Source: Siphonodentalium dalli
Taxonomy: Eukaryota; Mollusca; Scaphopoda; Gadilida; Siphonodentaliidae
NCBI GenBank assembly: GCA_032622095.1
Contig: CP136062.1
Coordinates: 9,513,710 to 9,577,709, forward strand
DNA length: 64,000 nt
Direction: 5' to 3'
This document shows, piece after piece, positions 5,124 to 43,289 of the stretch. Under the pieces are notes generated by a model. The model was not told where the DNA came from and ran no database searches. It saw nothing but the letters and a program-made list of their open reading frames with translations. How positions within the stretch are numbered: position 1 is the stretch's first letter; each line of letters opens with the position of its first letter. Made by a program: the position numbers and the translations under genes.

Positions 5124-5451
5124 GTTGAAGGGGTCACTCTCACCAAAAAAGTGCTGTTCAAAGGGTACACATGGTTTGAAAATGTGCTGAAGGGTACACA
5201 GGGTTTGTGATCGACACGAACACCACTACTTAAATTGTGTTTATGAAAGTCTGGCGCCCATTAGCAGTTTGTTTTCAGTACATTTTAATATTCATTCGAA
5301 CGTAAACAATTATTCTCTAACAGAAATCATGGCAGATACGAAAACTGAATGTCCTTTAGAACGACATTTCAAACCATGTGTATCCTTCAGCACATTTTGA
5401 AAATCCTGTGTACCCTTCAGCACTTTTTTTGGTGAGAGTGACCCCATCAAC
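5124..5451 (+). mobile_element. hAT-like MITE, copy 1 (328 bp)
   Basis: The terminal inverted repeats are GTTGAAGGGGTCACTCTCAC on the left and its reverse complement (ending GTGACCCCATCAAC) on the right. The direct duplication ACTAGTATG lies at 5115-5123 and 5452-5460. An 8-bp target duplication, or 9 bp with one ambiguous base, is the signature of the hAT superfamily. Inside the ends are repeated 'AAGTGCTG..AAGGGTACACA' subterminal motifs, four in all across both ends. There is no coding sequence. A second copy lies in opposite orientation at 33895-34213. Confidence 0.9.
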
Positions 5452-29007: not shown

Positions 29008-29995
29008 TATACTCTAGTAGCTCATGGTGGTTTTGTATGCACTTGTATGTCCAGAGCAAAACTCTTCATGAATCCACTAATTGAAGGTACACGAACAATA
29101 TTTGGTTGGTGACACATTTCCCATTGAGGGCGAAATGGGTCAAATGGCCACGCCCTTTTTGCGCGAAGTACTACCACCCGCCGTGACTATATCTCCAGAA
29201 CCGTTTGACATAGGGGGCCGAGTGACCACTCAAAATGTGCGGAATGGTCACATTATGGGTGGTCAGTAATACATTTTTATATCCAAAAGTCAATGGTTTT
29301 TAAGATAATTGCCAAAAACCAAAAAAAATCCATTTTTAAGGGCCCAATTTTGGGGTTCAGCACTTTTATCTCAAAGCTATGGAATCCTATTAGGGCCACT
29401 TGCTAATGGCGCGTTCGGCGCACTTTTTGTCGCTTTCGGCGCGCGCCGAAACATACCCTAATGGCGCACTTTTTGTCGCTTCCGGCGCGCGCCATTAGGG
29501 AGTGGACCTAATAGTATGCCTAATGGCGCTTTCGGCGCGCGCCGAAAGCGACAAAAAGTGCGCCATTAGTAACGCGCCGAAAGCGACAAAAAGTGCGCCA
29601 TTAGTAACGCGCCGAAAGCGACAAAATGTGCGCCGTTACGGCGCACATTTTGTCGCTTTCGGTGCGCCGAAACATGCGCTAATATCGCACATTTTGTCGC
29701 TTTCGGCGCGAAAGCGACAAATAGTGCGCCGTAACGGCGCATATTTTGTCGCTTTCGGCGCTTTCGGCGCGTTACTAATGGCGCACTTTTTGTCGCTTTC
29801 GGCGCTTTCGGCGCATCGCGCCGAAAGCGCCATTAGCAAGTGGCCCTAATAGGATTCCATATAAAGCTGAGCCCAAAATTAAAATGTTATTGACCTATAT
29901 CCATCGGTGCCACATACAGGTATCATTTATAATATTTTCTGTACCATTATCGGATGGAATTGACCTTCAAGGAGCTCTTGACCCTGAAAATAAGG
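29008..29995 (+). repeat. Dispersed repeat R2, plus copy (left arm of a long inverted repeat)
   Basis: The sequence starts at 'ACTCTAGTAGCTCATGGTGG' and passes through 'CCATTGAGGGCGAAATGGGT', 'CATTTTGAGTGGTCAC'-related sequence and 'CCATTTTTAAGGGCCCAATT'. It is split at 29379-29862 by the GC-rich foldback, then resumes 'GAGCCCAAAATT' and ends 'GGAGCTCTTGACCCTGAAAA'. The reverse complement lies at 32858-33325. The outer ends of the two copies face away from each other, as in terminal inverted repeats of a ~4.3-kb element. Short frames sharing 'YLVGDTFPIEGEMGQMATP' exist in both copies but diverge by frameshift afterwards, so DNA-level homology is the better explanation. Confidence 0.85.
29379..29862. 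mobile_element. GC-rich multi-palindromic foldback element (484 bp)
   Basis: The terminal inverted repeats are ATGGAATCCTATTAGGGCCA at the left end, continuing CTTGCTAATGGCGC, and the reverse complement on the right, ending GGATTCCAT. Between them are about ten copies, six forward and four inverted, of a core like GGCGCACTTTTTGTCGC. The cores are joined by TTTCGGCGCG and GCGCCATTAG modules, so almost any part can pair with another part. The direct duplication AAAGCT (29373-29378 and 29863-29868) flanks it. The paralogous R2 copy near 32963 has the same site uninterrupted. It is strikingly CpG-rich in an AT-rich setting. Long frames on both strands arise from the repeats and are not genes. Confidence 0.92.
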
Positions 29996-32769: not shown

Positions 32770-33325
32770 TCGGTTTTTGGCAATTATCTTAAAAACCATT
32801 GACTTTTGGATATGAAAATGTATTACTGACCCCCCATAATGTGGATTTTCAGGGTCAAGAGCTCCTTGAAGGTCAATCCCATCTGATAATGGTACAGAAA
32901 TTATACCTATATGTGGTACCGATGGATATAGATCAATAAAATTCGAATTGGGGGCTCAGCTTTGAGATAAAAGTGCTGAACCCAAAATTGGGCCCTTAAA
33001 AATGGATTGTTTTTGGTTTTTGGCAATTATCTTAAAAACCATTGACTTTTGGATATGAAAATGTATTACTGACTCCCCATAATGTGGCCATTCCGCACAT
33101 TTTGAGTGGTCACACGACCCCCTATATCCAACGGTTCTGGAGATATAGTCACGGCGGGTGGTAGTACTTCGCGCAAAAAGGGGCGTGGCCATTTGACCCA
33201 TTTCGCCCTCAATGGGAAATGTGTCACCAACCAAATATTGTTCGAGAACCTTCAATTAGTGGATTCATGAAGAGTTTTGCTCTGGCCATACAAGTGCATA
33301 CAAAACCACCATGAGCTACTAGAGT
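32770..33325 (-). repeat. Dispersed repeat R2, minus copy with internal duplication
   Basis: The reverse complement matches 29008-29378 and 29863-29995. The junction 'TCTCAAAGCTGAGCC' (minus strand, about 32958-32972) is the empty site for the foldback in the plus copy. A ~68-bp block, 'TGGCAATTATCTTAAAAACC' through 'CCCCATAATGTGG', is present twice (about 32778 and 33017). The inner end has therefore rearranged, with one block repeated beyond the 'GAGCTCCTTGAAGGTCAAT' segment. Confidence 0.88.
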
Positions 33326-33354
33326 AATAGGCCTACTAGTACCCCCTTCAGAGC

Positions 33355-33372: not shown

Positions 33373-33499
33373 TTTTTTTCTTCTGATTCTTGCAAATATT
33401 TACTTGTTTTCACATTATTTACAAACATAGAAACTGTTCTGTCCATTCAACAATGGAGGATGAGTACATAATATGTGCTTTAATTTATGGGAGGCCCTT

Positions 33500-33633
33500 T
33501 TCACATTTATTAATTATTTGCGCTTAAGCGCAAATATTTGTGCTTAAGCGTAAATCATTTGCGCTTAAGCGCAAATATGTGTCCATCAATTTATTTGCAC
33601 TCAAGCGCAAATCGTTTGCGCTTAAGCGCAAAT
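33500..33633. repeat. Cluster of five 20-bp perfect or near-perfect palindromes
   Basis: The palindrome ATTTGCGCTTAAGCGCAAAT occurs at 33516-33535 and 33557-33576. Variants lie at 33536-33555, 33593-33612 and 33614-33633. Mutations are often paired on both arms (T for C at one arm end and T for G on the other), as though the palindrome is preserved. The leader TTCACATTTATTAAT precedes it and also precedes a related cluster at 42764. Confidence 0.95.
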
Positions 33634-33894
33634 ACCTAACGCTCCCTAACATCCCTCTGATGTGAATGATTGAGTCCATCTCATATTATATTATCATGGG
33701 CCCATAGTAGTAGCCCCATACAGACTGGAAAGTGGAAGGGAAAAAAATCCATATGTATATCACCATCTCTGTCCCGGGTGTCCCAAGAATTGCAACCTCA
33801 CTCCCAGAGATCTAGTATATTTTATTAAAGGGACATCTCCTGCACAGATATATACCATTTCCATGGCCATAAATAGGGAATTAGGGGTTACTGG

Positions 33895-34213
33895 GGCTGA
33901 AGGGGTCACTCTCACCAAAAAAAGTGCTGACGGGTACACAGGATTTTCAAAATGTGCTGAAGGGTACACAGGGTTTGAAATGTCATTCTAAAGGACATTC
34001 AGTCTTTGTATCTGCCATGATTCTGTTAGAGAATAATTGTTTACGTTCCAATGAATATCAAAATGTACTGAAAACAAACTGCTAATGGGCGCCAGACTTT
34101 CATAAACACAATTTAAGTAATGGTGTTTGTGACGAACCCTATGTACCCTTCAGCACATTTTCAAACCCTGTGTACCCTTCAGCACATTTTTTGGTGAGAG
34201 TGACCCCTTCAGC
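33895..34213 (-). mobile_element. hAT-like MITE, copy 2 (319 bp)
   Basis: The ends are GGCTGAAGGGGTCACTCTCA and its complement (ending GTGACCCCTTCAGC). An exact 8-bp target duplication GTTACTGG lies at 33887-33894 and 34214-34221. The interior matches 5124-5451 in reverse complement, including 'GCGCCAGACTTTCATAAACA' and 'GTTAGAGAATAATTGTTTAC'. Intact duplications at both copies indicate simple insertions with little later damage. Confidence 0.93.
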
Positions 34214-36927: not shown

Positions 36928-36991
36928 GCCACGAAATAACTAATTCGTGGCCACGAAATAACTAATTCATGGCCACGAAATAACTAATCGT
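36928..36991. repeat. Short array of GGCCACGAAATAACTAATTC units
   Basis: Three ~21-bp units read (GGC)CACGAAATAACTAATTCGT. GGCCACGAA forms a palindrome with the preceding TTCGTGGCC. The same unit, mostly in the opposite orientation, makes a longer array at 41861-42178. Both arrays lie next to a 'CCTAAACC' segment. Confidence 0.9.
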
Positions 36992-37198
36992 GATATACGA
37001 TCGTCAGTCCCATTGTTGTAATGGAATCGTCTCAGTCCGGTGATAAATGGTTCAGCCGACTTGGTATACCTATACAACTGCCGACTGCGCGACAGAGTTC
37101 AGTCCCCTCACTACGCTGGTATGAACACTGCCATCGCGAATACACATTTGTGACCCGCCATATCAAATCCAGTCGTAAGTCGGGATTTTTTTACCCTG

Positions 37199-41763: not shown

Positions 41764-41860
41764 AAACTAATGAATATTCAGTTTGTCTTGGAGCCACATA
41801 ACCCGAGTTTCCAAGTGTAACCAGTCGCCGTAAATGTATCTGGATATATGCAATGGTCAA

Positions 41861-42178
41861 TCAGTTATTTCGTGGCCACGAATTAGTATTTCATGGCCAC
41901 GAATTAGTTATTTCGTGGCCACGAATTGGTATTTCCTGGCTACGAATTAGTATTTCCTGTCCACGAAAATAATTATTTCGTGGCCACGAATCAATTATTT
42001 CGTGGCCACGAAATAAAAAAAAAAATTCCCATGTCCTAAACCAGCCACCGTACGTTACACCAATGCCATTGTCGGTCATATTCGGCACACAAATACTATT
42101 TCTTGGCCACGAATTAGTTATTTCGTGGCCACGAAATAAAAAAAAAATTCCCATGTCCTAAACCAGCCACCGTAGTTG
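41861..42178. repeat. Array of TTTCGTGGCCACGAATTAGT units plus duplicated flank
   Basis: About ten ~20-bp units contain the perfect palindrome TTCGTGGCCACGAA. The sequence 'ATTCCCATGTCCTAAACCAG' followed by 'CCACCGTA' occurs after the array twice (about 42027 and 42147), so a larger block of palindromes plus flank has duplicated. An 87-codon minus-strand frame across it is repeat-driven. Confidence 0.92.
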
Positions 42179-42545: not shown

Positions 42546-42763
42546 ATCTATAAATAAAACGCCCAGCGAACCATAGCTATCTAGAATCTCTAGGACAGTA
42601 TACACCCGAGGGCGTTGATAACAAGAAAACCATAGTCATAAATGGTAACGCCCTCAAGATCATATTATTAGCAATATATACAATATAACAACTTTAATGT
42701 GGTGATTGTGAAAAATCTGTATATAGGAAACGCTATGGGGGGCCAAATTCACATTTATTAATA

Positions 42764-42823
42764 ATTGCGCTGAAGCGGAATTCAATTGCGCTGAAGCGCA
42801 ATCCAATTGCGCTGAAGCGCAAT
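42764..42823. repeat. Cluster of three ATTGCGCTGAAGCGCAAT palindromes
   Basis: Units lie at 42764-42781 (one arm mutated to GGAAT), 42785-42802 and 42806-42823, with 3-base spacers. The shared leader TTCACATTTATTAAT immediately precedes them. The core GCGCTNAAGCGC differs from the 33.5-kb cluster only at the centre, so both belong to one family. Confidence 0.92.
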
Positions 42824-43289
42824 TCAATTCAAGAAAATTAACTGGTATCGCATCGCAATTTGCTACCCAAATTTGGATAATAGCTATGCAATTTGGTATG
42901 AATTTTATATGATTTCAGAACAATGCTATCTAATTATGTCATTATGAGGTTATTTGCTAATCAAAATTTCAAAAGTAATTTGCTCCCTGAATAGGTGGGT
43001 TATTCCATTATCATAAATTCATATGCGATACCAACCAATTGCATGCGCTTCAGACTGCTTCCTTGCCTCTTATAATGAGTATTATGAGTTAACTAAAGAC
43101 AGTAAACAATCATGAGAGCACCCCTACCTTTTACATTAAGGGCTGAGAGGATAATATAAAATGATTTATGGACTGAGTCATTTTATATTCGTTTAAAACC
43201 ACATCTCAGAAAATTCTTTAGAAGTCTTCAGTCACATACAGAAGGAATAGAGGCAAGGAGACTAAGTTTCCCCTGCCGCACCACATAAT
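42824..43289. other. Unassigned intergenic sequence
   Basis: No gene is recognised. 'GGTATCGCATCGCAATTTGC' and 'GCATATGCGATACC'-type inverted similarity brackets about 42843-43040, weakly suggesting another foldback. Confidence 0.4.

Follow-up and report, generated by a model that had tools for sequence, protein, structure and literature searches.

A gene-less foldback transposon family with IS3EU-like ends and target duplications, and palindrome arrays beside rva_4 genes of the same genome

Transposons of the IS3EU superfamily have TA..TA ends and usually a 6-bp target site duplication (TSD) (PMC10045372); those of fungi end in TAYGG..CCRTA, and the fungal TET+ families carry terminal inverted repeats (TIRs) of over 30 bp (PMC12730594). 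In the oyster satellitome, two satellites have been annotated as IS3EU (PMC8268682). The element described here, whose family we call the window family, resembles the fungal IS3EU transposons in its 6-bp duplication, its TAYGG..CCRTA ends and its TIR of over 30 bp (PMC12730594). Tetris/DAIBAM of Drosophila virilis resembles it in being a non-autonomous foldback with modular internal tandem repeats, copy-number variation and a relation to satellite-like arrays, but differs in its 8-10-bp TSD and repeat units of ~220 bp, and the accessible text of that work mentions no IS3EU ends (PMC4079207); the structure is thus alike, but the TSD of the window family is 6 bp. Foldback4 of D. melanogaster shares with it palindromic modules in both orientations and module deletions and repetitions between copies, although it is a different family, represented by ten sequences that measure 627-2266 bp and whose terminal palindromes mostly exceed 400 bp (PMC2955051).

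The window, that is, the whole 64,000-nucleotide stretch analysed (C2:9513710-9577709), belongs to a genome of 2.23 Gb in 9 contigs. The element runs from TATGGAATCC to GGATTCCATA at 29378-29861, 484 bp, its outer sequence reading TATGGAATCCTATTAGGGCCACTTGCTAATGGCGC at the left and GCGCCATTAGCAAGTGGCCCTAATAGGATTCCATA at the right. The preliminary description had recognized it at 29379-29862, so that the true limits are shifted one base to the left. In window coordinates, the features are:

29378..29861, no strand: entire non-autonomous foldback element, TATGGAATCC...GGATTCCATA, 484 bp
29378..29421, + strand: left terminal inverted repeat, 44 nt, complementarity to the right arm 98%
29818..29861, - strand: right terminal inverted repeat, 44 nt, pairing with the left arm
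29372..29377, no strand: left copy of the target duplication, CAAAGC
29862..29867, no strand: right copy of the target duplication, TAAAGC, 1 mismatch (5/6)
29417..29796, both strands: the GCGACAAAAAGTGCGCC core ten times (four on +, six on -), at most 3 mismatches
29434..29451, no strand: perfect 18-bp palindrome, TTTCGGCGCGCGCCGAAA
29488..29520, - strand: degenerate inner copy of the terminal repeat, 85% complementary to 29381-29413
29527..29550, no strand: perfect 24-bp palindrome, CGCTTTCGGCGCGCGCCGAAAGCG
29538..29642, + strand: three tandem copies of the 35-bp word CGCGCCGAAAGCGACAAAAAGTGCGCCATTAGTAA, two identical and the third 83%
32958..33021, - strand: unoccupied target site, located in the inverted copy of the repeat that flanks the element and reading CTCAAAGCTGAG, element absent

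All 10 matches to the GCGACAAAAAGTGCGCC core found in the window at up to 3 mismatches lie within the element, where shuffles predict 0.09, and the same is true of the 13 exact occurrences of the word TTTCGGCGC (shuffle expectation 0.07). The inner copy of the terminal repeat and the left end bound a sub-element of ~143 bp. When folded as single-stranded DNA, the element reached -252.3 kcal/mol, as compared with -104.9 (s.d. 4.5) for 100 shuffles (z = -32.9). Its GC content is 0.545 versus 0.375 in the remaining window, and its CpG observed/expected ratio 1.89 versus 0.73. These data bear out the earlier reading of a CpG-rich foldback, here folded against shuffled controls, made of about ten inverted copies of one core and of a small vocabulary of words, palindromes among them, running in both directions.

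The stretches 29010-29991 and 32772-33326 form an inverted repeat pair, 80-97% complementary piecewise, only one of which holds the foldback element; the other preserves near 32963 the unoccupied site CT-CAAAGC-TGAG, in agreement with the empty site previously proposed for this second copy. The flanking direct repeats had been read as AAAGCT, which is right in length and off by one base: that frame was rejected in favour of CAAAGC/TAAAGC because perfect 6-bp repeats abut TATGG..CCATA in 20 of 31 distinct end pairs. Two further pairs matched at 5/6 (22/31 at 5/6 or better) and the other nine at 4/6 or worse, so that 11 of the 31 were without a perfect duplication; for this count, a left end with more than one candidate right end was paired with that giving the best duplication, loci sharing the same flanks entered only once, and two of the 31 are inner pairs that sit within other copies. 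Perfect repeats of 3, 4, 5, 7, 8 or 9 bp were found in none of the 31 pairs, and of 2 bp in three. Shuffling the right flanks among the pairs yielded a mean of 0.6 perfect 6-bp repeats, with a maximum of 4 in 2000 shuffles. Moreover, a 25-nt end pattern, the outermost 25 nt of the left TIR, allowing up to 3 mismatches, matched 3001 genomic sites (1491 forward and 1510 reverse), and the reversed-pattern control matched none. The ends therefore recur throughout the genome with a consistent duplication, and these two observations, together with the empty site, confirm the mobility of the family and establish its end sequence, duplication length and copy number. In two loci (L043 and L045), an inner pair nested in an outer pair has its own perfect 6-bp duplication (CATTAG and ATATTT, respectively) derived from the words, which means that the family inserts into its own copies.

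The family is a short gene-less transposon with well over a thousand genomic copies. With the whole element as genome query, at least 203 matching pieces (pieces, not copies) were obtained with the best 40 of 1924 candidates scored, the main matches having 77-93% identity, gaps included. Among the 100 exact end sites listed of the 3001, there were 27 adjacent inward pairs spanning 119-2483 bp, 18 of them at 119-477 bp. We aligned 13 copies of 428-566 bp, namely that of the window, the seven whole-element matches ranking next to it and five others, all with TATGG at the left and CCATA at the right. Over aligned bases, ten of the other 12 shared 96.7-99.3% identity with the window copy, a high value that is partly selected, the best matches having been chosen; L038 was 93.8% identical and L054, after reversal, 94.7% over 375 bases. 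The aligned copies differed mainly by insertions and deletions of whole words, mostly of 9 bp or 33-37 bp but sometimes larger (42 and 92 bp). Thus, 35 bp of the tandem CGCGCCGAAAGCGACAAAAAGTGCGCCATTAGTAA word were absent from 11 of the 12 other copies, and the twelfth had a 42-bp gap there. The words had been called shuffled; they do occur in both orientations, but within this size class their order is largely conserved, and what the copies show instead is gain and loss of entire words. The recent arrival suggested before holds only as recent amplification, as seen in the ten closest copies, and in no wider sense. A trace of the degenerate inner end copy lies 130-227 bp from the left end in 12 of the 13 copies and, since end pairs spanning only 119 and 121 bp also exist, a mini-element may have been the starting point of the long form. 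In three copies (L044, L049 and L054), reading frames free of stops over 120-160 codons run through the repeats, and none of these frames resembles rva_4.

For the high CpG density, protection from methylation had also been suggested. In 12 of the 13 aligned copies (L054 left out), transitions affected 30 of 1534 CpG positions versus 10 of 1456 other C/G sites (odds ratio 2.9, p = 0.0024), changes shared among copies being counted repeatedly. The excess is modest, but CpG transitions are raised, and protection is thus not supported.

Concerning its affiliation, the family is short, non-coding and multicopy with inverted ends, as MITEs are, and it displays the 6-bp TSD (perfect in 20 of 31 pairs), the TAYGG..CCRTA ends and a TIR exceeding 30 bp (44 nt) that are hallmarks of IS3EU. 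The preliminary description held that a 6-bp duplication does not by itself identify a known superfamily; taken together with the TATGG..CCATA ends, however, it allows IS3EU to be named. We therefore consider the window family to be a non-autonomous IS3EU family, a foldback MITE, and regard this explanation as likely even when taken whole, with the roles of transposase and words set out below. No similarity to rva_4 was detected by tblastn with three rva_4 proteins in the examined loci of the family, and none of these loci had an rva_4 gene between TATGGAATCC ends, although an rva_4 lineage with TACGG..CCGTA ends and a 6-bp TSD is present in the genome. Several long copies were considered as autonomous elements and rejected: six (L039-L043 and L045) share an interior without similarity to rva_4, and in a seventh (L056) the interior of ~1.65 kb is a separate dispersed repeat. 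The latter, at about 604-2260 of that locus, had 45 matches including itself, mostly of 92-99% identity. Five single-ended 10-kb loci (L046, L047, L048, L053 and L055) were likewise negative for rva_4 by tblastn.

We take PF24764 to be rva_4, an integrase core, and rva_4 to be the IS3EU transposase on the basis of the ends found in this genome. At least 126 matches to PF24764 were obtained here (best 150 of 241 candidates scored) and none in 14 control genomes. In one lineage (L061; rva_4 E = 4e-26 in the Pfam check), the ends read TACGGCGGCC..GGCCGCCGTA, and three elements could be read at both ends, each containing an open rva_4 frame of 346 aa:

C4:26576442-26604659: L061-lineage element, 28.2 kb, perfect 6-bp duplication GTTTTA
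C7:158584711-158613337: L061-lineage element, 28.6 kb, perfect 6-bp duplication CATTGC
C4:60622662-60649741: L061-lineage element, 27.1 kb, perfect 6-bp duplication TATATC

As all three combine TACGG..CCGTA ends with perfect 6-bp duplications, this lineage of rva_4 elements shows the hallmarks of IS3EU, and the genome contains machinery with a suitable cutting geometry. By motif, the spacing from the second D to the E is DDE-like, with 39 residues in L061 and L060 and 35 in L059. A helix-turn-helix match in L061 was weak (E = 0.0073, below the cut-off), and a PDB sequence search with the L061 frame gave no match at E<=1.

Palindrome arrays adjoin genes of this kind. In L061, a 0.73-kb array of CCTGATATATCAGG lies beside the start of the transposase frame and ends ~30 bp from the element end. 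In a second locus, group A, the end TATGGGAGGCC is followed by TTTGCGCTTAAGCGCAAA words, with the rva_4 frame ~7.5 kb away. This stretch (C3:137756700-137775600, including L059 and L062-L065) holds 23 TTTGCGCTTAAGCGCAAA words at up to 3 mismatches, and the 4.5 kb of L059 match ~20 other places over at least 3 kb at 96-100%. Inverted arms of 1.4 kb (97% identity) surround the part with the rva_4 gene and these words; they were discarded as the TIRs of group A, for they lie outside the end TATGGGAGGCC, which is the one end found, adjoining the array, the opposite end not having been found in this locus. Blind samples of 101 bp were then taken beside 10 other rva_4 places drawn from among the matches (at least 126), one position each, covering the interval from 700 to 800 bp upstream of the domain, an offset set from L061. 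Five samples contained palindrome arrays (L076, L077, L078, L081 and L082, with periods of 21, 20, 21, 20 and 21 bp), and the five palindromes were all different; of the other five, L075 had a direct repeat only, and L074, L079, L080 and L083 had none. The same thresholds were passed by 28 of 1920 control tiles (Fisher p = 2.5e-7), which represent not the genome at random but the window (633 tiles) and 13 loci around the ends of the window family (1287 tiles). On a positional reading of 25 of these 28 tiles, most fell in window-family copies or arrays of the window, and three in AT-rich simple repeats. A stricter test requiring perfect palindromes was passed by 3 of the 10 samples and by none of the 1920 tiles. 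One rva_4 lineage therefore has palindrome arrays, and five other sampled rva_4 genes have them upstream.

Comparable arrays were observed elsewhere in the window. At 33486-33634, an IS3EU-like end TATGGGAGGCCCTTTTCACATTTATTAAT, with TATGGGAGGCC at 33486, leads into about six palindromes of TTTGCGCTTAAGCGCAAA type, the word also present in the rva_4-bearing group A locus. At 42734-42829, a related end TATGGGGGGCCAAATTCACATTTATTAAT, with TATGGGGGGCC at 42734, precedes about three AATTGCGCTGAAGCGCAATT palindromes. Arrays of TTTCGTGGCCACGAAA-type palindromes occupy 41859-42174 and 36928-36992; two TTTCGTGGCCACGAAA arrays finish in ...CCAGCCACCGTA, that is, in CCACCGTA ends at 42052 and 42174, and the rva_4 gene of the L081 sample has a similar word in front of it. 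The window also carries a separate MITE with GCTGAAGGGGTCACTC ends, at 33896-34213 and at about 5200-5450, a relative of which is inserted in L060. Its copy at 33896-34213 is flanked by the 8-bp repeat GTTACTGG, hAT-like by length, and the GTGCTGAAGGGTACAC units seen in L060 and in the window, once considered as an rva_4 word, belong to this MITE.

We propose that the TATGG..CCATA ends would be cut and joined in trans by an IS3EU-type DDE transposase, with the rva_4 integrase fold, that would be made elsewhere and introduce 6-bp staggered cuts in the target. It is very probable that a transposase of this type moves the window family. The internal words, present in both orientations, could be repeated subterminal binding sites for the transposase or a partner protein, and on balance we lean towards reading them as putative binding sites of that transposase. 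In plants, Ac and En/Spm carry short subterminal motifs in both orientations that are bound by proteins of the element; they belong to other superfamilies, and the words of the window family are only putative binding sites. Such words might have accumulated since extra sites would help and since inverted words would mispair during replication. Whole words would then be gained and lost faster than bases change, the proposed reason being mispairing of inverted words in single-stranded DNA, and slippage or hairpins are a probable cause of this turnover. Palindromes in register at two helical turns would suit a dimeric DNA-binding protein; compared with the 20-21-bp arrays of lineages that carry a gene, the window family has longer, less regular words, to which this would extend by analogy only. 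More tentatively, and as a conjecture held with reserve, the IS3EU transposons of this genome may be "iteron" transposons in which each lineage has its own array of ~12-20-bp palindromes, spaced at 20-22 bp inside the TAYGG end before the transposase, as a putative landing platform for a dimeric transposase. Co-evolution of palindrome and DNA-binding domain might then constitute a specificity code that separates lineages and chooses their MITEs, the window element being a MITE made mostly of such a platform.

Alternatively, the word arrays could be passive, satellite-like passengers that expand by slippage and hairpin template switching without any binding role. This would account for the whole-word insertions and deletions that separate near-identical copies, and repeats expanding inside transposons have been described for Tetris (PMC4079207) and in the discussion of the oyster work (PMC8268682). 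We nonetheless consider it unlikely, as passive expansion does not predict five different words at comparable positions in front of five rva_4 genes, all with a 20-21-bp period.

The duplications of hAT and Mutator transposons measure 8 bp or 8-11 bp, and none of the 31 end pairs was perfect at 8 or 9 bp. A different origin, in Dada, hAT6 or some undescribed superfamily that likewise makes 6-bp duplications, with a resemblance to IS3EU at the ends only, would be consistent with the fact that no transposase was tied to TATGGAATCC ends in the examined loci. Dada-U6 makes 6-bp TSDs (PMC3706591), and PMC12730594 includes among its references one on a hAT group with a 6-bp duplication. However, Dada-U6 and Dada-U1 are without TIRs and Dada targets small-RNA genes (PMC3706591), whereas our element has 44-nt ends, no RNA family reached the gathering score in an Rfam scan of the window, and the duplications of the window family are diverse. 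As, in addition, TATGG..CCATA fits the IS3EU signature, common to an rva_4 lineage of the same genome, such an origin appears highly improbable.

It is equally improbable that the long hairpin itself is what has been selected, for example through transcription into double-stranded RNA that would feed a silencing or small-RNA pathway: the fold is indeed strong (z = -32.9) and 79-85% of bases were paired in eight members folded as RNA, but the gene-bearing lineages have arrays in which short palindromes stand apart, and not one long hairpin. Finally, a local, non-mobile palindromic rearrangement, which the strong self-complementarity of the element might suggest, can be dismissed given the 3001 end sites, the consistent 6-bp duplications and the empty site.

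Returning to the assignment to IS3EU, the open-licence full-text literature, in the portions accessible to us, yielded no description of palindromic-word arrays or of whole-element foldback in this superfamily, and the foldback word structure of an IS3EU MITE and the palindrome arrays across rva_4 lineages appear to be new. The oyster satellites annotated as IS3EU could represent something related. Little work has been devoted to the IS3EU superfamily and, if the palindromes of its lineages are binding sites, transposase-site pairs would be available as a natural panel within this one genome. This would permit a direct test of how transposase specificity diverges and of whether MITEs are shared or partitioned among lineages, and some satellite-like palindrome arrays would gain a definite source. 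The gain and loss of words in near-identical copies represents, in turn, a measurable case of probably hairpin-driven repeat turnover.
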